Part shown: positions 1,819 to 11,947 of the stretch, piece by piece | Position numbering within the stretch: position 1 is the first letter of the stretch | How the letters are laid out: each line of letters opens with the position of its first letter | Source: an uncultured Phycisphaerales bacterium | GTDB taxonomy: Bacteria; Planctomycetota; Phycisphaerae; Phycisphaerales; UBA1924 | Direction: 5' to 3' | Length of the DNA: 12,295 bases | Assembly (NCBI GenBank): GCA_937871415.1 | Contig: CALMQD010000590.1 | Coordinates: 1 to 12,295, forward strand | Program-made: the position numbers and the translations under genes | Notes under the pieces: model-generated | The model's database searches: none | Told to the model about the DNA's origin: nothing | What the model saw: the letters and a program-made list of their open reading frames with translations, nothing else

Positions 1819-2311
1819 CGTCTCGTCCTCGCAAACAGAGAGTCCGGTTCGGCCGCTTCACCAGACGAGCGGCGGCGACCTTGGATCGGACTCTTGGCGC
1901 GAGGTCTTGACGTCTGAATCGACTGACCCGTCAAAATCAACTATCCGGACTTGGCCGGACCGGCGGAAAGTGCCTGTTTCTCCGTCTGGTGTTGCTGTCG
2001 GAATCACGCGGGCGCCGACCACCACCCCGCGCCCCATTGCCCGATCGGCCCGCCTCCCGGCCTTTGCGAAGCCTTTTTCCTCGCCCCCACCCGGTTTTCG
2101 ATGTGATCCGCCGGCCCCGATGGATCACCGAACAAACATCAACCATTGACCCCAACTGATTGACACCGCTTCACCTTTCGCGTTAGGTTACTCCCCCGCG
2201 CGCGTTCTCGGATCACCATGCATCCGCGTCCAGCGCGTGTTCGTAACTGATTCGGACCTCGGCGCCCCGGCGGCGCACCAGTGTTCGTCTCGACATCGCG
2301 AGGAGCCCCCT
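1819..2311. other. Divergent intergenic region
   Basis: About 490 bases separate the starts of the response regulator (-) and the HEAT-repeat protein (+). No convincing coding sequence lies inside: the short open frames have no Shine-Dalgarno and no recognisable product. It holds an 8-base perfect inverted repeat AGAGTCCG/CGGACTCT (1839-1846 and 1887-1894) in the regulator leader, a 6-base inverted repeat TTGACG/CGTCAA (1907-1912 and 1929-1934), and a promoter-like site at 2160-2189. Its A+T content looks higher than that of the flanking genes. Confidence 0.6.
2160..2189 (+). promoter_or_regulatory. Candidate sigma-70-type promoter for the HEAT-repeat gene
   Basis: A perfect -35 hexamer TTGACA lies at 2160-2165. 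After an 18-base spacer comes TAGGTT (2184-2189), which keeps the first, second and last bases of the -10 consensus. Transcription would start near 2196, leaving a leader of about 115 bases before the GTG at 2312. A second copy of the -35-like word, ATTGACCCC, lies 14 bases upstream (2145-2153 against ATTGACACC at 2159-2167). Motif match only. Confidence 0.4.
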
Positions 2312-4516
2312 GTGCAGCATCCGTCCGCGTCCCGTCTGACCCAGCTCTCGCTGGCCATGCTCCTGGTGTCTCTGGCCGGACAGCCCGTCTCCGCCCAGAC
2401 CGACGCGAGCCGCTCGACCGGAACGACCGCCGCGACCAAGACCGACCCCAAGGCGATGCTCGACGACTTCGAGCACTACGTCCTGATCGACCGCGCCGAC
2501 GTCGCCGCCGCCACCGGACAGGCGCTGCTCGACCTCAACCTTTCGCCCACCGAGTTCGTCAGCGTGGTCGAAGGCTCGCGCCGCGGGGTCGGCCAGTTCA
2601 ACAAGGCCATCAACCGCGCCATGGCCCGGCGCGAACTCGAGACCATCGCCGCCCAACTCCTCAAGGCCTACGAGTCCGGCAAGCTCGCCACCGCTCGCAG
2701 CCCCGAGGCCGTCACCAACGCCATCAAGGACCTCACCGGCACTCAGCGCCAGCGACTCTTCGCCGCCCAGCGCCTGATCGCGGCGGGCGAGTACGCCATG
2801 CCGCAGCTCCTCTCCGCCCTGCTCGGCGGCGATATCCGCCTGAGCACCGAGGTCCGACGGGTCATGGTCGAGATGGGCCGCCAGGCCGTCGTTCCGCTGA
2901 CCACCGCCCTCCCGGACCTCGATCCGGTCGGCCAGGAACTGGTCGTGAGCGTGCTGGGGGACATCACCTATACCCACTCCCTCCCCTACCTCTACGACCT
3001 CCGCGCGTCGACCACGAGCCCGAACGTCCGGACGGCCTGCGAAGAAGCCATCCGCAAGATCGCCGTCGTCGTCAACGACGCCACGCCGATCGCCGACCGC
3101 TATGTCGAAGTCGCCAACAGCTTCTACAAGGAAACCCCGACCCTCACGCCCTTCCAGGATGATCAGAACCAGCTCTGGTGGGGCTACGACCCGCGCATCG
3201 GCCTGACCTTCACCGCGATCGATACCTCGGTCTATCACGAGGCCATGGCGATGCGACTGACCGAGCGCGCCCTCACGCTCGATCCTGCCAACGAGAAGGG
3301 TGTCGCGCTCTGGATCGCCGCCAACTTCTCCCGAGAGATCGACTCACCGGCCAACTACGCCAACCCCGCCTACCCGGCGACGCGCCGCGACGCGATGTAC
3401 TACGCCGTCGCTGCGGGCTCCTCCACCGCCCAGCGCGTCCTGGCCCGCGCGATCGACGACATCGACACGCCGCTGGCACGCAAGGCGATCGCCGCGACCG
3501 AGAAGACCGCGGGCGGCAACGGCCTGTGGGAAGGCCTCGGCTCGCGTAAGCCGCTGCTCGAAGCGCTGCGCTACTCGAACCGGCGCGTGCAGTACGAGGC
3601 GGCGATGGCCCTGGGCGCCGCCCAGCCGCGCCAGCCGTTCGAAGGCTCCGACCGGGTCGTCCCCATCCTCGCCAGCGCCATCCGCGACGTCGGCGCCAAG
3701 TACGCCGTCGTCCTGGCGAGCGACGCCGAACGCCAGGCTTCGCTCGTGGGCATCCTGCAGGGCAAGGGCTACACCGTCCTCCCCGCCGCGGCCTCCTTCA
3801 CCGACATCGAGCAGGCTCTCGCGGACGCTCCGGGCGTCGACCTCATCGTGACCGACCTGCCGTCGGGCTCGACCGCCGACGCCCTGGACCAGGCCCGTTC
3901 GCGGATGAAACTCCGCGCAACGCCCGTCCTCGCGCTCGTGAGCGCCCAGGGCTACGCCGACCTGGCCGTGAAGTTCTCGCGTGACACCAGCGTCCGCATC
4001 GCCCGCGCGGGCCTGAGCGCCGACGAGATCGGTGTCTCTTCCGAGCAGCTCGTCGACAAGGCCACGGGCGGCAGCATCAGCAACGAAGAGGCCGAGGCGT
4101 ACCGCACCCAGGCGCTCCACGTGCTCCGCGACCTGGGCGTCTCTTCCAACAACGTCCTGAACATCGCCGACGCCGCGGGCCCGCTCATCTCCGCCCTCGG
4201 CGCCAGCACCGGCCCCAATCGTCTCCTCGTCGGCGAGGTCCTGGCCTATGTGCCCACCAAATCGGCGCAGCAGGCCCTCTTCGACGCGGCGATGGCCCCC
4301 GAGGCCGCGGGCCAGGAACGCGTCGCGCTCCTCGAACGCGTCGCCATGAGCGCCAAGCGCACCGGCAACCAGTTGAACGACCGCCAGGTCGCGTCGCTGG
4401 TCGAACTGGTCAAGACCGGCGGCGACGCCGAGGCCACCGCCGCCGCTTCACTCATGGGCGCGCTCAACCTCCCCAACGCCAACATCGTCCCGCTGATCCT
4501 GGGCAAGGGCGGCTAA
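2312..4516 (+). CDS. Exported HEAT-repeat protein with degenerate receiver-like domain
   Basis: The chosen start is GTG at 2312, with AGGAG at 2301-2305 and a 6-base spacer. The frame is open back to a GTG at 2237, but only the 2312 start gives a clean signal peptide: residues 1-28, hydrophobic LSLAMLLVSLAG, cleavage after VSA. The product is 734 residues. Helical HEAT-like repeats are visible at about 160-250 (MPQLLSALLGG, then VRRVMVEMGRQAVVPL), 413-460 (RKPLLEALRYSNRRVQYEAA) and again near the C-terminus (about 630-734). Residues 463-590 resemble a CheY-like receiver: YAVVLASDAERQ with D471, VDLIVTDLP with D515, and ALVSAQG with S544. The spacings of 44 and 29 residues match CheY (44 and 30), but the conserved lysine is missing. 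The signal peptide puts it outside the cytoplasm, where phosphotransfer is not expected, so a structural or binding role is inferred. It lies just upstream of the secretion cluster and is separated from it by a terminator-like hairpin. Confidence 0.85.
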   Translation: MQHPSASRLTQLSLAMLLVSLAGQPVSAQTDASRSTGTTAATKTDPKAMLDDFEHYVLIDRADVAAATGQALLDLNLSPTEFVSVVEGSRRGVGQFNKAINRAMARRELETIAAQLLKAYESGKLATARSPEAVTNAIKDLTGTQRQRLFAAQRLIAAGEYAMPQLLSALLGGDIRLSTEVRRVMVEMGRQAVVPLTTALPDLDPVGQELVVSVLGDITYTHSLPYLYDLRASTTSPNVRTACEEAIRKIAVVVNDATPIADRYVEVANSFYKETPTLTPFQDDQNQLWWGYDPRIGLTFTAIDTSVYHEAMAMRLTERALTLDPANEKGVALWIAANFSREIDSPANYANPAYPATRRDAMYYAVAAGSSTAQRVLARAIDDIDTPLARKAIAATEKTAGGNGLWEGLGSRKPLLEALRYSNRRVQYEAAMALGAAQPRQPFEGSDRVVPILASAIRDVGAKYAVVLASDAERQASLVGILQGKGYTVLPAAASFTDIEQALADAPGVDLIVTDLPSGSTADALDQARSRMKLRATPVLALVSAQGYADLAVKFSRDTSVRIARAGLSADEIGVSSEQLVDKATGGSISNEEAEAYRTQALHVLRDLGVSSNNVLNIADAAGPLISALGASTGPNRLLVGEVLAYVPTKSAQQALFDAAMAPEAAGQERVALLERVAMSAKRTGNQLNDRQVASLVELVKTGGDAEATAAASLMGALNLPNANIVPLILGKGG

Positions 4517-4885: not shown

Positions 4886-5392
4886 ATGCGCAATCGTGTT
4901 CGGAAGGCCTTCACGCTCGTCGAAATCCTCATCGTCGTCGTGATCCTCGGCATCCTGGCCGCCATCGTCATCCCCCAGTTCACCAACGCCAGCCAGGAGG
5001 CGCAGGTGGGCAACATCCAGACGCAGCTGCAGACGATCCGCAGCCAGATCGAGCTCTTCCGCGTCCGGAACAACGGTTCGTCGCCCGACATCGCCGGCGA
5101 CGTGGACGCTTCGTTCTCCGACCTGCTCGTCGGTACGGGCAACCAGCTCAGCCTCGGCACGGAGAACTCCTTCGGCCGCACGCAGGAGCCGTACGCCCGC
5201 ACGCGTCCGGTGAACCCGCGCAACGGCTCGAACTCGGTGGTCGAGGACGCGACCCCGCGCACGACCGCCGGCAGCGCCGCGGCCACCCCGGGTGGCGCGG
5301 GCTGGTACTACAACAGCGCGACGGGCGAGTTCGCCGCCGCCGGCTTCGACGAGTCCACGAACACGTGGGTCGCCGAGTCGACCGGTCCGTAA
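4886..5392 (+). CDS. Type II secretion / type IV pilin-like major pseudopilin (PulG/GspG-like)
   Basis: ATG at 4886 follows AAGGAG (4872-4877) with an 8-base gap. The 168-residue product has a short basic leader MRNRVRKA and then the class III prepilin signal FTLVEILIVV, with the conserved Glu at position 5 of the mature protein. A prepilin peptidase would cut after Ala8. The hydrophobic helix (about 9-30) anchors the protein in the inner membrane before assembly; residues 31-57 continue the amphipathic helix (NIQTQLQTIRSQIELFRVRN). The globular part ends in a GWYYNSATGEFAAAGFD motif shared with the pseudopilin at 5529 and the secretin tail. Family role: subunit of the periplasmic pseudopilus of a type II secretion-like machine. 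Its own leader hairpin and a strong terminator (5421-5455) suggest separate, perhaps higher, expression, as expected for the major subunit. GspG itself or a type IV pilin are both possible identities. Confidence 0.85.
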   Translation: MRNRVRKAFTLVEILIVVVILGILAAIVIPQFTNASQEAQVGNIQTQLQTIRSQIELFRVRNNGSSPDIAGDVDASFSDLLVGTGNQLSLGTENSFGRTQEPYARTRPVNPRNGSNSVVEDATPRTTAGSAAATPGGAGWYYNSATGEFAAAGFDESTNTWVAESTGP

Positions 5393-5528: not shown

Positions 5529-5975
5529 ATGAGGCGTCATTCGGCCTTCACGCTCGTCGAGATCCTCATCGTCGTCGTCATCCTCGGCATCCTGGCGGCC
5601 ATCGTCATCCCCACCTTCACCCGCGCGACCTCCGATGCCCAGGCCAACGCCACGCTCACCGACCTGGTGAAGATGCGCCGGGCCATCGGCGTCTATCGCG
5701 CCCGCAACAACGGCCAGATGCCCCCCATCGTCGAGGCCGACGGCGACCCCGCCGTCCAGTGGGGCCCGCTCGTGGGTCAGTCCGGCGAGTACATGCAGGG
5801 CCCGCCCGTGAACGCCTGGGTCGGCGGCGATAACGCCCGGAAGGTCGCGGTCATCGAGAACTACGAACCCGCCGCCGATTTCCAGACCGACTACGGCTGG
5901 ATCTTCGATCCGGTCACCGGCGAGCTCTACGCCGCGTCTTTCGACGCGACCGACAAGCCGCTCCCGCGGAACTAA
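5529..5975 (+). CDS. Type II secretion / type IV pilin-like pseudopilin, second copy
   Basis: ATG at 5529 follows GGAG (5516-5519) with a 9-base gap. The 148-residue product starts MRRHSA and then FTLVEILIVVVILGILAAIV; a prepilin peptidase would cut after Ala6. The 22 residues after the cut are identical to those of the upstream pseudopilin, while the globular parts are diverged. The helix continues as LVKMRRAIGVYRARNNG. The C-terminus carries DYGWIFDPVTGELYAASFD, very close to DYGWIFNPETGQIWASGFD in the secretin tail at 10366-10422. Family role: pseudopilus subunit in the inner membrane and periplasm. It comes after the strong terminator of the first pseudopilin, so it needs read-through or its own promoter. 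It may start the transcription unit that continues to the following small genes. Confidence 0.85.
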   Translation: MRRHSAFTLVEILIVVVILGILAAIVIPTFTRATSDAQANATLTDLVKMRRAIGVYRARNNGQMPPIVEADGDPAVQWGPLVGQSGEYMQGPPVNAWVGGDNARKVAVIENYEPAADFQTDYGWIFDPVTGELYAASFDATDKPLPRN

Positions 5976-6449: not shown

Positions 6450-6517
6450 CGCAACGCCCGCCGCGTCCCGTCCCCGCGCCGTTCCCACGCCGACTCCTTG
6501 TGTTCCGGGAGCCCACG

Positions 6518-7177
6518 ATGAAACGCCTTCCACCGTCCGCCCCGCACGGCCCGGCCGCCCCCCGGCTGGTCGCCCGCGCCGGACGACCGCGCCCCGCCTT
6601 CACCCTGCTGGAGATGCTCGCGACGGTCGTCGTGATGGGCATCGCCGCCGCCCTGCTCATCCCCGCGATGGGCGAGACCGGCATCCTTCGGGTGCAGGGC
6701 GCGCTCCGCATGGTCGTCTCCGACATGACCTTTGCCCAGAGCGACGCCGTGGCCTTCCAGGAACGACGCGCCCTGGTCTTCGACGTCGAGAACAACGCCT
6801 ACGCGATCGTCGCCGTCCCCGGCAACTCGATCGACGTCGACAACAACGTCCTCTACGACCCCACCAAGACCGACGGGCGGTACCTCGTCACGCTCAACGA
6901 CCCGCGTTTCGGCGGCGCGCGCATGACCAGCGCCAACTTCGATAACAACAACTTCATCATCTTCGACGCGCTCGGCGGCCCCGTCTCCGACCCCGGTTCG
7001 AACGAGCCCAGTTCCGGCGGGACCATCCGCCTCTCCGGCAACAACCAGTCCTTCCGCATCACCGTCGACGCTTTTACCGGTCGCATCCGCGTCGTCCGTG
7101 AGGCCGCCGGCTCCGGCGGCGGCGAGAGCGAAGGCGGCGCCGGCGGCGGCGGGGCCGTCGCGCTCACCCCGCCGTAA
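6518..7177 (+). CDS. GspH/FimT-like prepilin-type protein
   Basis: ATG at 6518 is chosen because GGGAG (6507-6511) precedes it by 6 bases; an in-frame GTG at 6500 has nothing comparable. The product is 219 residues. It has a long 27-residue basic, Pro/Ala-rich leader, then the prepilin signal FTLLEMLATVVVMGIAAALL with the conserved Glu at mature position 5; cleavage is expected after Ala27. The sequence after the helix (LRMVVSDMTFAQSDAVAFQE) resembles GspH/FimT minor pseudopilins, in which an Arg/Ser-rich helix is followed by beta strands. The C-terminus is Gly-rich (SGGGESEGGAGGGG), probably a flexible tail. Family role: minor subunit at or near the pseudopilus tip, started in the inner membrane. 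It ends in a double stop (TAATAA, 7175-7180), followed by a hairpin with TTTT at 7193-7211. Confidence 0.8.
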   Translation: MKRLPPSAPHGPAAPRLVARAGRPRPAFTLLEMLATVVVMGIAAALLIPAMGETGILRVQGALRMVVSDMTFAQSDAVAFQERRALVFDVENNAYAIVAVPGNSIDVDNNVLYDPTKTDGRYLVTLNDPRFGGARMTSANFDNNNFIIFDALGGPVSDPGSNEPSSGGTIRLSGNNQSFRITVDAFTGRIRVVREAAGSGGGESEGGAGGGGAVALTPP

Positions 7178-7894: not shown

Positions 7895-10273
7895 ATGTCG
7901 AGTTCTCGTCGGCCCGTTCGTATCGCACCCCGCGACCTGGTCAGCATCTGCGGCAAGGCGCCGGCGTGCCTGGCCGCCTCGCTGGTCGGACTGCTCACCC
8001 CCGCCGCCTTGTGGGCACAGCCCGCCATGGACGCGCCCCCGCCCGCGGCTCAGCCCGCGCCGGCTCGCGACCCCATGAAGCCGGGCAAGGACAGCGCCGA
8101 CAAGCCCGTCGTCAAGGTCAGCGAGCACAACACCGTCGACCTCCACGTCAAGGACGAGGACCTGGCCAACGTCCTGCAGCTGCTCTCCATGCAGACGCAG
8201 AAGAACATCATCGCCAGCAAGAACGTCTCGGCGCGCGTCACCGCCACGCTCTACGGCGTGACCTTCTACGAGGCCCTCGACGCCATCCTCCACGTCAACG
8301 GCTTCGGCTACCTCGAGAAGGGCAACTTCATCTACGTCTACACCAACGAAGAGCTCAAGCAGATCGAGGCCGCGCTCAAGAAGCGCGTCGCCAAGGTCAT
8401 CCGCCTCAACTACCTCAACGCCACCGACGCCAAGAACTTCGCCGAGCCCCTGCTCTCGAAGGACGGCGGCCAGATCCAGACCGCCGAGAAGACCGCCAAC
8501 TTCGCCATCCCCGACAAGAGCCCCACCGGCAAGGACGACTTCGCCCACACCGCCACCATCGTCGTCATCGACTACGAGGAGAACATCGCCGCCATCGAGG
8601 AGATGATCCGCCAGATCGACACCCGCCCCTCGCAGGTGCTCATCGAGGCCACCATCCTCCAGACCTCCCTCACCGAAGAGAACGCCTTCGGCATCGACTT
8701 CTCCGTCATCGGCGACCTCAAGTTCACCGACTTCATCAACATCGGCGGGCCCCTGGGCGCCGCCAACGGCCTGATCAAGGGCGGCACCGGCAGCTCCACC
8801 GGCGGCCTCTCGCCCTCGGACAACCAGGGCACCGCCGTCGTTTCCTCCCCCGGCAACACCGCCGGCAAGGGCACCTTCAAGGCCGGCGTCGTTGCCGGCG
8901 ACCTCTCGATCTTCCTCAAGACCCTCGACGAGGTCACCGACTCGATCATCCTGTCCAACCCCAAGATCCTCACCCTCAACCGCCAGCCCGCCCGCGTCCT
9001 GGTCGGTACCCGCGTCGGCTACCTCAGCACCACCAGCACCGACACCAGCACGACCCAGACCGTCGAGTTCCTCGACACCGGTACCCAGCTCTACTTCCGC
9101 CCCTTCGTCTCCTCCGACGGCGACATCCGCATGGAGCTCAAGCCGCAGGTCTCGTCTGCTGAGATCCGCACCGTCACCGACTCCAACGGCGCCGCCGTCA
9201 CGATCCCCGACGAGATCACCCAGGAACTCGTCACGAACGTGAACGTCCGCGACGGCCAGACGATCGTCCTCGGCGGCCTGTTCACCGACAACCAGACGTT
9301 CACCCGCCGCCAGGTCCCCTTCCTCGGCGATATCCCCGTCATCGGCGCTGCGTTCCGCGGCAACGACGACAAGACCGACCGCTCCGAGATCATCTTCCTC
9401 GTCACCCCGACGATCGTGACCGACCAGGCCATCGCCTCTGCCGCCGAGAAGGCCCAGAGCGACATGGAGCGTCTGCGGGCCGGTTCGCGTCAGGGCCTGC
9501 TCCCCTGGAGCCGCGAGAAGATGACCGGCCAGCTCAACGTCGAGGCCGAGAAACTCGCCCGCGAGGGCCAGTACGACAAGGCGCTGTGGCTCGTGCAGCG
9601 CTCGCTCTCGCTCAACCCGCGCCAGCCCGAGGTCTACCGCCTCCGCGAGCGGATCACCGGCGAGCGCGAGATGTGGAACGACCCCAGCCGCATGGAGAAC
9701 TACTTCCACGACGACGCGACCAAGCGTCTGGGCGGCGTGCAGACGCAGGACCCGGCGCCCAAGCACCGCACCCCGTGGGGCTCGGTCGACCAGCCGCGTG
9801 AACGCACCAAGAACCCCGGCAGCGTCTCGTTCAACTACTCCAACAACGACCCGGTGGCGCAGGCGATGCTCACCAGCAACGCCCGCGACCTGCAGAACAA
9901 GATGAACGTCTCGCCGAACCCGACGCCGACCCCGGCGACGGACTCGACGAACACCGCGCCGGCGAACCCGGCGCCGACCGCGGAGAACTCGACGAACTCG
10001 AGCGAGCAGGCCGCCGCGCCCGCTCAGCCGCAGACCGGCATCAAGGGCAAGCTCGTCGAGCGTCCGAACAATCAGCTCGCCAACAACAACAACAACAATG
10101 CGTCCGCGAGCAACGACTCCGCCGTGAGTGTCACGAGCCTCGACGCCAAGTACGACCCGCGCCCCGTGCAGAACACCCTCGCCGAAGTCCGCACCTACAT
10201 CGGTGTCTGGATGTCGGAGAACGGCGCTACGGCGAGAACAGCGGCTGGGAGGCCCTCACCAGCACCGGTCTGA
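7895..10273 (+). CDS. Secretin (GspD/PilQ family) with TPR-like and pilin-like C-terminal extension, frame-disrupted
   Basis: ATG at 7895 follows GGAG (7885-7888) with a 6-base spacer; an in-frame ATG at 7802 lacks one and would hide the signal peptide. The 792 residues contain a signal peptide (1-41, cleavage after ALWA), an N0/STN-like domain (about 80-150, VDLHVKDEDLANVLQLLSMQ), an N1-like ring domain (165-242) and the secretin core (245-509). The core carries the diagnostic VNVRDGQTIVLGGLF and QVPFLGDIPVIGAAF near 449-487. Residues 550-590 look like a TPR unit (AEKLAREGQYDKALWLVQRS). A long Asn/Pro/Thr/Ala linker (about 600-750) includes a run of seven Asn. From about 750 the sequence LAEVRTYIGVWMSENG matches the pseudopilin at 5529, then the frame is lost: the last 15 residues are unrelated and end at TGA 10271-10273. 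Role: multimeric outer-membrane channel. If the lost base is restored the protein would be about 895 residues, continuing to 10581. Confidence 0.9.
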   Translation: MSSSRRPVRIAPRDLVSICGKAPACLAASLVGLLTPAALWAQPAMDAPPPAAQPAPARDPMKPGKDSADKPVVKVSEHNTVDLHVKDEDLANVLQLLSMQTQKNIIASKNVSARVTATLYGVTFYEALDAILHVNGFGYLEKGNFIYVYTNEELKQIEAALKKRVAKVIRLNYLNATDAKNFAEPLLSKDGGQIQTAEKTANFAIPDKSPTGKDDFAHTATIVVIDYEENIAAIEEMIRQIDTRPSQVLIEATILQTSLTEENAFGIDFSVIGDLKFTDFINIGGPLGAANGLIKGGTGSSTGGLSPSDNQGTAVVSSPGNTAGKGTFKAGVVAGDLSIFLKTLDEVTDSIILSNPKILTLNRQPARVLVGTRVGYLSTTSTDTSTTQTVEFLDTGTQLYFRPFVSSDGDIRMELKPQVSSAEIRTVTDSNGAAVTIPDEITQELVTNVNVRDGQTIVLGGLFTDNQTFTRRQVPFLGDIPVIGAAFRGNDDKTDRSEIIFLVTPTIVTDQAIASAAEKAQSDMERLRAGSRQGLLPWSREKMTGQLNVEAEKLAREGQYDKALWLVQRSLSLNPRQPEVYRLRERITGEREMWNDPSRMENYFHDDATKRLGGVQTQDPAPKHRTPWGSVDQPRERTKNPGSVSFNYSNNDPVAQAMLTSNARDLQNKMNVSPNPTPTPATDSTNTAPANPAPTAENSTNSSEQAAAPAQPQTGIKGKLVERPNNQLANNNNNNASASNDSAVSVTSLDAKYDPRPVQNTLAEVRTYIGVWMSENGATARTAAGRPSPAPV
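10081..10098 (+). repeat. CAA trinucleotide repeat in the secretin linker
   Basis: Six tandem CAA units encode most of the Asn run in the linker. A triplet repeat changes length without shifting the frame, so it would alter linker length and not switch the gene off. It is the only simple-sequence repeat of note in the cluster. Confidence 0.7.
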
Positions 10274-10581
10274 TGCCGGAAGCCCCCCGCAACACCTACA
10301 TCGACGGCCCGAACGCCGCCAAGGTCGTCGTCGGCTTCAAGCCCGACGAGAAGGTCCACAGCGACTACGGCTGGATCTTCAACCCCGAGACCGGCCAGAT
10401 CTGGGCCTCGGGCTTCGACACGAGCGACAACCCGCTCCCCAAGGCCGCGCCCAGCGCGGTCCAGAACGCCTCGAACGGCAACAACCCCGCCGCGTCGCCC
10501 GCCGCTCCGGCGTCGACGACCCCGGCGAACAACCAGCCCGGCCAGTCCAGCGCCAACGCGGAACCGAGCCAGGGCGAGTAA
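10273..10581 (+). CDS. Pilin-like C-terminal domain fragment, probably the displaced end of the secretin
   Basis: Read on its own, this ORF has 102 residues from an ATG that overlaps the secretin stop (TGATG, 10271-10275), and it ends with TAA. It has no Shine-Dalgarno of its own, no signal peptide and no prepilin signal. Residues 31-56 (SDYGWIFNPETGQIWASGFD and on to NPLP) match the C-terminus of the pseudopilin at 5529-5975 at about 16 of 26 positions. Related sequence continues upstream of the ATG in the same frame from about 10225 (RYGENSGWEALTSTGL), so the ATG is probably not the true beginning. The final 45 residues are an Ala/Pro/Asn-rich tail. Best explanation: the C-terminal end of the secretin, separated by a one-base frame change near 10220-10230. 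The alternative is a small protein made by translational coupling across TGATG. Confidence 0.7.
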   Translation: MPEAPRNTYIDGPNAAKVVVGFKPDEKVHSDYGWIFNPETGQIWASGFDTSDNPLPKAAPSAVQNASNGNNPAASPAAPASTTPANNQPGQSSANAEPSQGE

Positions 10582-10660: not shown

Positions 10661-11947
10661 ATGAACCAGCGCTTCCCCGTCCGTTCCGTCCTCGCCGTCG
10701 CCCTCGTCGCCGCCGCCGGCTCGCTCGCCTCGTGCGGCGGGTCCCAGCGGCACGGCAACTACACCAAGGAGGGCGTGAGCAAGGCGCAGGAGCGTCTCGC
10801 CCAGCTCAAGAGCGGCACCGAGTGGCAGATGGCCCAGCAGCAGTACCTCGCCGGCGACGTCGACAAGGCGCTCAAGACCATCGACAAGTCGCTCACGCTC
10901 AACCCCAAGGTCCCCAAGTCCCACGTCCTGCGCGGGCGAATCCTCATCGAGAAGGGTGAGATCGAGCACGCCAAGGACGCCTTCGAGACCGCCCTCTCGC
11001 TCGAGCCCGACAACGTCGAGGCCCACTACTTCCTCGGCATCGTCCACGAACGCTTCAGCATGGACGACAAGGCCCTCGCCTACTACCAGCGCGCCTCCGA
11101 ACTCGAGCCCAGCAACCCGCAGTACGTCCTCGCCTCCGCCGAGATGCTCGTGAACCTCGGCCGCATCGATGACGCCGAGCAACTCCTGCTCTCCCGCAAG
11201 GAGTCCTTCGGCTACAGCGCCGCCATCCGTCAGACCCTGGGCCACATCGCCGTCCTTCGCGGCCAGCACGTCAAGGCCGCCGAGTACTTCAACGACGCCC
11301 TCCTGCTCGCCTCCGACGACCCCGCGATCCTCGAGGACCTCGCCCGCTCGCAGATCGCCTGCGGCCGCTTCGGCGACGCCGAGTTCAACCTCCAGCGACT
11401 GCTCCGCATGGACGGCCAGCAGGACCGCCGCGACCTGCAGATGCTCCGCGCCAGGTGCCTCCTCGCCACCGACCGGCCCGTCGAGGCGCGCTCGCTCATG
11501 CAGACCGTCATCAACTCACCCGACGGCGGCGCCGACGCCCAGGCCTGGGTCGAGCTCGGCAATGCCGCGCTCGTCCTCAAGGACCGCGGCAACCTGCGCC
11601 TGGCCGGCGCGCGCGTCACGGCCCTCGCCCCCGAACGCTTCGAGGGGCACCTCTTCCGCGCCTCCTACCTGAACCTCGAGAGCCAGAAGAACGAGGCGCT
11701 CGTCGCCGCCGACAACGCCATCGCCCGGTGCGGCGGCAACACGGCCCCCTACCTCCTCCGCGCCTCCATCCTCAACGACATGGGCAAGCACGAGGAGGCC
11801 CGCCAGACCCTCGCCGCGGCCCTCGAGGTCGCCCCCAACGACCGCGCCGTCATCGCCTTCCAGAACTTCATCGACGCGAACCCGTCTACGACCGGCACGC
11901 CGGCCACGCCGGCTATCACGGGCGTCGAGACCGAATCGAACCCGTAA
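10661..11947 (+). CDS. TPR-repeat lipoprotein, possible secretin pilotin (PilF/PilW-like)
   Basis: ATG at 10661 follows GGAG (10648-10651) with a 9-base gap; in-frame upstream codons overlap the hairpin and lack a signal peptide. The 428-residue product has a lipoprotein signal with lipobox L22-A-S-C25, so Cys25 would be lipidated. Gly at +2 does not predict inner-membrane retention by the enterobacterial rule. About eight TPR-type helix pairs follow (about 55-410), for example YLAGDVDKALKTIDKSLTLN, AHYFLGIVHERFSMDDKALA and PYLLRASILNDMGKHEEARQ. The C-terminal 20 residues are a Thr/Pro/Ala tail. Family knowledge: PilF/PilW are TPR lipoproteins that help PilQ secretin localise and multimerise; they are shorter (about 250 residues, six TPRs). 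Position directly after a secretin supports that role here, but a general scaffold lipoprotein is also possible. Shared shape with the TPR-like unit inside the secretin is noted. Confidence 0.8.
   Translation: MNQRFPVRSVLAVALVAAAGSLASCGGSQRHGNYTKEGVSKAQERLAQLKSGTEWQMAQQQYLAGDVDKALKTIDKSLTLNPKVPKSHVLRGRILIEKGEIEHAKDAFETALSLEPDNVEAHYFLGIVHERFSMDDKALAYYQRASELEPSNPQYVLASAEMLVNLGRIDDAEQLLLSRKESFGYSAAIRQTLGHIAVLRGQHVKAAEYFNDALLLASDDPAILEDLARSQIACGRFGDAEFNLQRLLRMDGQQDRRDLQMLRARCLLATDRPVEARSLMQTVINSPDGGADAQAWVELGNAALVLKDRGNLRLAGARVTALAPERFEGHLFRASYLNLESQKNEALVAADNAIARCGGNTAPYLLRASILNDMGKHEEARQTLAAALEVAPNDRAVIAFQNFIDANPSTTGTPATPAITGVETESNP

Follow-up and report, generated by a model that had tools for sequence, protein, structure and literature searches.

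A secretin gene in a 12,295-nucleotide stretch of DNA from an uncultured Phycisphaerales bacterium (assembly GCA_937871415.1, contig CALMQD010000590.1; the whole stretch is referred to as the window) was found to carry, beyond the barrel of the secretin, a TPR-like helical block, a long low-complexity linker and a domain homologous to the globular head of a type II secretion system (T2SS) pseudopilin. A secretin with a tethered pilin head is almost certainly a real architecture; no report of one was found in the open-licence papers of PubMed Central. A relative of the pseudopilin type designated G2, lacking the prepilin helix, was joined to the secretin tail, most simply by one event, and the join is now represented in at least 10 genomes. 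An earlier note on this DNA had proposed that the globular part of a pseudopilin was joined by a linker to the secretin. The proposal held: nine other genomes had the fusion intact, and the head belonged with the lineage of the neighbouring pseudopilin.

Distribution of the fusion

The first head profile was built from heads selected by eye. With a profile of seven heads, the main head was found in 10 of 163 genomes of the family, distributed over six genera, each with a score of at least 120 bits; among the matches listed, those at or below 108.5 bits were all in frames of no more than 314 residues. In all nine head-bearing genomes besides the window, the head and the secretin were encoded in one open frame of 871-1115 residues, and in L001, a contig of a public Phycisphaerales metagenome-assembled genome, a single frame of 852 residues extended from the secretin to the pilin head. 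The earlier note had named separate encoding of the pilin-like part in related genomes as the observation that would speak against it, but the nine head-bearing relatives had the fused form in every case. Moreover, all ten head genomes had a pseudopilin match in a short frame, indicating that a separate G2 was retained and ruling out the possibility that the head is the only pseudopilin, relocated to the secretin gene.

A sample of 392 genomes from the phylum, in which the window was the sole head-bearing genome drawn and no more than 13 candidates were scored where others turned up, so that heads of low similarity or from remote relatives may have escaped notice, gave four genomes that reached E 1e-18. 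All four were family members and only the window had the fused head.

The pilin-like head

In the window, the head is divided between two frames of the forward strand. Its start, the end of pilin helix alpha1, was located in the secretin frame at 10160..10222 by comparison with the heads of relatives, and the rest, comprising the sheet and the C-terminal loop, lies in the other frame at 10231..10440 (head profile: 120.7 bits, E 6.2e-35). The tail frame matched the pseudopilin encoded upstream at 5529, as claimed, with 45% over 55 residues (BLASTP, E 2e-16). A further match had been claimed between LAEVRTYIGVW in the secretin frame and the pseudopilin helix. As a match to the pilin, this segment alone was below significance (E 21), but the comparison with the heads of relatives identified it as the start of the head.

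The relationship was also seen when families were compared. A profile of 10 heads matched a profile of 42 G2 pseudopilins with E 1.5e-42 and one of the G1 pseudopilins with E 2.9e-28, while five column-shuffled controls failed to match, the highest probability being 17.6%; this profile-profile comparison had been suggested in the earlier note as a check. The lack of a pilin-like sheet in a predicted structure had likewise been named as grounds for rejection, but the model of the head has one helix and three strands, with a predicted local distance difference test score (pLDDT) of 93.4. Pfam assigned no family to the tail-frame head of the window or to the head of the relative L042. When the head was compared with structures in the PDB, the best match was a type IV pilin but was not significant, and the sole match in a PDB profile search was an unrelated protein with E 0.87.

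The pilin membrane helix had been described as missing, and in six relatives the 30 residues at and preceding the head were found to contain neither a hydrophobic helix nor a prepilin cleavage site. The head does not pass as a prepilin and, as far as its sequence tells, is pilin-derived rather than a pilin. The pseudopilins of the GspG kind, to which G2 of the window belongs, have a homologous globular head, but the fused head differs from them in being without the prepilin peptidase site and the hydrophobic helix, and would be soluble and tethered to the secretin. In the alignment, residues of the sheet and the C-terminal loop were common to the fused heads and G2. However, a helix Lys and a helix Arg, present in 93% and 83% of G2 sequences, respectively, were lost from the heads, and a new His was invariant in all 10 heads while occurring in 19% of G2.

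Origin and constraint

When 110 heads and globular domains of pseudopilins were placed in a tree, all ten fused heads formed one clade (support 99/96) that was sister to the 42 G2 pseudopilins (98/95), the two together being supported at 100/98. G2 is the pseudopilin type encoded at 5529 of the window. The G1 and G2 labels were set by a threshold of 59.5 bits against the fused-head profile, which favours a split, but the support values of the clades derive from the tree itself. The fused head is thus very probably akin to the G2 lineage, in agreement with the claim that it is related to the neighbouring pseudopilin.

The tree of secretin cores placed the seven sampled head-bearing secretins in one group of nine (87 by the Shimodaira-Hasegawa-like approximate likelihood ratio test, SH-aLRT), which also included two head-less members, L043 and L044. 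The simplest reading would be one gain of the head followed by later loss.

The rates of nonsynonymous and synonymous substitution (dN/dS) in the head were 0.30/0.76 for the window piece compared with L039 of the same genus, 0.072/0.38 for L042 and L122, and 0.116/0.63 for L040 and L127. The linker was near neutral between the window and L039 (0.84/0.86) but not between L042 and L122 (0.18/0.61), and the separate G2 heads of the window and L039 gave 0.35/0.95. These values indicate that the head evolves under constraint; G2 is retained alongside it as a separate gene.

The secretin and the layout of its tail

The secretin gene spans 7895-10273 of the window, and the second frame, in which the pilin-like head is continued, runs to 10581. 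The region 7895..9418 encodes a signal region, N0, Secretin_N and the secretin core. The Pfam matches to N0 (about 8147-8329, E 7.6e-5) and Secretin_N (about 8393-8635, E 5.5e-6) were both slightly under the curated cut-off, while the core, PF00263, was matched from residue 346 to 508 (about 8930-9418) with E 2.2e-42 and 145 bits against a cut-off of 27.5, which agrees with the claim of a complete core ending at about residue 509. The order of N0, Secretin_N and core is that of T2SS and type IV pilus secretins, and by its core and the two domains preceding it, the protein can be assigned to this class. GspD/PulD and PilQ have the same order but are described as ending in a short S-domain that binds the pilotin (PMC6532946, PMC6882859), whereas in the window secretin the barrel is followed by the TPR-like block, the long linker and folded modules. 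PilQ with its AMIN domains and LspD with its SPOR domain (PMC9239104) are likewise secretins with folded modules that link them to other parts of the envelope. According to the same source, those modules precede N0 and bind peptidoglycan, while the modules in the present tails follow the barrel and duplicate components of the machine itself.

Tails were collected from one secretin locus each of 80 of 100 relative genomes, together with L001, L002 and the window (83 tails; that of L051, as analysed, includes part of the barrel). The TPR-like block, directly after the barrel at 9482..9691, was only weakly matched in the window (TPR_9, E 0.0027; TPR_14, E 0.032; both below the curated cut-off). 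TPR families were found at E 0.1 or better in seven of nine post-barrel segments, none of them over the cut-off. Nevertheless, a search with a profile grown from these tails found the block in all 83, and the predicted structure of the relative L045 has helices at this position, so the TPR-like helix pair that had been noted after the core is upheld as a conserved block. It stands where known secretins place the S-domain.

The low-complexity Asn/Pro/Thr/Ala linker occupies 9692..10159. A long linker before the pilin-like part was confirmed, with a length of 101-248 residues in seven intact relatives (the value of 221 for L045 includes an N0 domain). Beyond the head, the tail has a low-complexity C-terminal end with the stop codon at 10441..10581. 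A short end motif, [TA]xVP[TEV], occurred in the last 30 residues of 28 of 82 tails (window excluded), whereas 200 shuffles gave 3.7 on average and 11 at most; the pattern was picked post hoc, and the tails share ancestry. The TPR protein encoded downstream of the secretin in the window ends similarly (ITGVET). Several similar WW..(P/S)EF..F...W units were seen by eye after the linker in the tail of L092, and Pfam gave no family for them.

Other modules in the same tail

The main head was present in the window and six relatives among the 83 tails. In addition, one pilin-like head was found in L062 and two, in tandem, in L096. The tandem heads were found at the secretin end in all three genomes of the L096 genus (L096, L159 and L160), and a pilin-like head in one of the two genomes of the L062 genus. 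In the trees, the heads of L062 and L096 were placed with the G1 pseudopilins and their host secretins lay apart from the main clade, suggesting separate captures of heads by different lineages. The approximately unbiased (AU) test did not reject a single origin, either for the full set of 13 heads (p 0.163) or for the main clade together with L062 (p 0.0835).

An extra N0/STN domain followed the barrel in 4 of the 83 tails (L002, L045, L066 and L084). It exceeded a Pfam cut-off in three of them and was under the cut-off in L002. The model of the L045 tail matched secretin N0 structures (best E 1.4e-5) and depicts N0 and the head as beads on a disordered string. In a tree of the tail N0 domains, which had too few columns, L002 and L066 grouped together and the other two copies were long unplaced branches. 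Since two other lineages have pilin-like heads at this place and four tails have N0, the tail is, on the sequences compared, a tether on which duplicates of the machine's own components have accumulated.

The genomes of relatives also encode giant secretin-domain proteins in frames of several thousand codons, a second secretin-core match being found, for example, in two such frames (G037:C10:41792-42364, 5151 residues; G057:C35:24666-25277, 4765 residues).

The broken copy in the window

The frame changes within a zone at 10213..10273 that is 19 nucleotides shorter than in three relatives, and the secretin frame stops at 10273. The distance from the helix Arg to a conserved Gly-Trp was 53 nucleotides in the window and 24 codons in L039, L042 and L122. 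The DNA alignment was poor, so the size of the break was taken from these anchor distances only, with L126 left out, and the window head was handled as two frame pieces, in which a conserved turn is missing and about six residues are lacking. The window genome consists of 615 contigs with a completeness of 77%, and the break may reflect either a mutation of the organism itself or a fault in assembly. A start codon for a separate protein could be sought in the ATG at 10273, which overlaps the secretin stop. However, a protein starting there would omit the helix and the first part of the head, and is conceivable for the broken window copy only. For the fusion itself, an assembly chimera was ruled out, because nine other genomes carry the head in one open frame with the secretin.

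Neighbouring genes

Three pseudopilin genes lie upstream of the secretin on the same strand: type G1 at 4886..5392 (N_methyl over cut-off), type G2 at 5529..5975 (N_methyl over cut-off; in the tree, the nearest lineage of the fused head), and a GspH-like pseudopilin at 6500..7177 (over cut-off for GspH, at E 1.3e-4, and for N_methyl). Downstream at 10661..11947, also on the forward strand, is a TPR protein (TPR_19, E 1.4e-28) whose N-terminus resembles that of a lipoprotein, with a lipobox recognized by eye; by position it is a possible pilotin candidate.

The ATPase (PF00437) and GspF (PF00482) families were found over cut-off in all 15 genomes searched, including the ten head genomes, although relatives from type IV pili match these families too. 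Among the matches listed, none was on the window contig, so the ATPase and GspF are tied to the window secretin by kind and not by position. Unlike on the window contig, GspF and ATPase-family matches (G036:C1:68723-71029) were within 5 kb of the L062 secretin (73516-75204).

Upstream of the pseudopilin genes, 2237-4516 encodes a HEAT-repeat protein of 759 residues (HEAT_2 over cut-off), and long frames resembling it were seen by eye upstream in L001 and L002. A protein with helix-turn-helix and response-regulator receiver domains (HTH_17 and Response_reg, both over cut-off) is encoded on the minus strand at 1219-1818, and a similar frame was seen by eye in L002.

Possible functions of the tethered head

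In solved T2SS secretins, the S-domain and pilotin are described as lying outside the barrel on the periplasmic side (PMC6882859, PMC6532946). The tail is expected to be in the periplasm because the C-terminal end of these secretins has this location, and one tail per secretin subunit would hang around the channel. The head, without a membrane helix, could not join the pseudopilus through such a helix. Most likely it would bind the usual partners of the G2 head, which would be the pseudopilus itself or, at the entrance, the N domains of the secretin together with the inner-membrane connector. Contacts of secretin N domains with effectors, with the connector in the inner membrane and with the tip of the pseudopilus have been reported (PMC5646246), as has binding of GspC by N0 (PMC3169554). 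The captured modules, the pilin head and N0, represent two sides of a known meeting place at the secretin entrance; docked heads would tether or align the pseudopilus and the assembly platform with the gate, and the N0 domains carried by other tails would act on the opposite side of the same contact. The best explanation of the whole, put forward tentatively as regards docking, is that a G2-like head on a tether, kept under constraint, may dock the pseudopilus or platform at the gate.

The head could instead act as a plug or decoy that fills the site of pseudopilin contact while the channel is at rest, competing with G2 until a growing pseudopilus displaces it. Of the features of G2 it retains the sheet and the C-terminal loop, whereas the Lys and Arg of the helix are gone, and a soluble mimic without an anchor would be the usual form of a competitor. 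Nonetheless, there was no sign that the head enters the channel, and the C-terminal end of known secretins is described as outside the barrel (PMC6882859), so this role is distinctly unlikely. Assembly or targeting offers another explanation, in which the TPR-like block and the downstream TPR protein replace the S-domain and pilotin, the head only helping folding, spacing or retention. The presence of the block in every tail, its resemblance to one of the repeats in the downstream TPR protein (E 2e-8, with 47% over 34 residues) and the identification of the S-domain as the pilotin site of known secretins (PMC6532946) are all consistent with such a replacement, but TPR repeats resemble one another anyway, and the pilin head and N0 are left unaccounted for. 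We consider it rather unlikely.

The variable length and content of the tails, the head-less members of the head clade, the broken window copy and the near neutral linker between the window and L039 would all be expected of a fast-changing disordered tail that tolerates domain insertions without function. A passenger of this kind is nevertheless improbable, given that the head was kept across six genera with residues invariant over 10 rows, that its dN was well below dS in three pairs, and that the insertions consist of pilin heads and N0 domains. Finally, the broken frame and the ATG overlapping its stop could be taken as signs of a separately encoded head or of a join made in error during assembly. 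This is scarcely credible, since a start at 10273 would drop part of the head, and it is refuted for the family by the intact single frames of nine other genomes, the public contig L001 included.

Docking at the gate can be extended to a more general proposal, which we regard as doubtful though conceivable: the periplasmic tails would repeatedly capture pseudopilin heads (up to three times, one of them as a tandem pair) and N0 (likewise up to three times), and the resulting ring would dock, hold or gate the pseudopilus, making self-mimicry a working layer of the machine. That a pseudopilin head is covalently linked to a secretin in nature implies that the two work close together, and the head, being naturally soluble, could be used as a handle for finding its partner. 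The occurrence of pilin heads or N0 at the same spot of the tail in different lineages suggests that these bacteria may benefit from spare contact domains at the gate.
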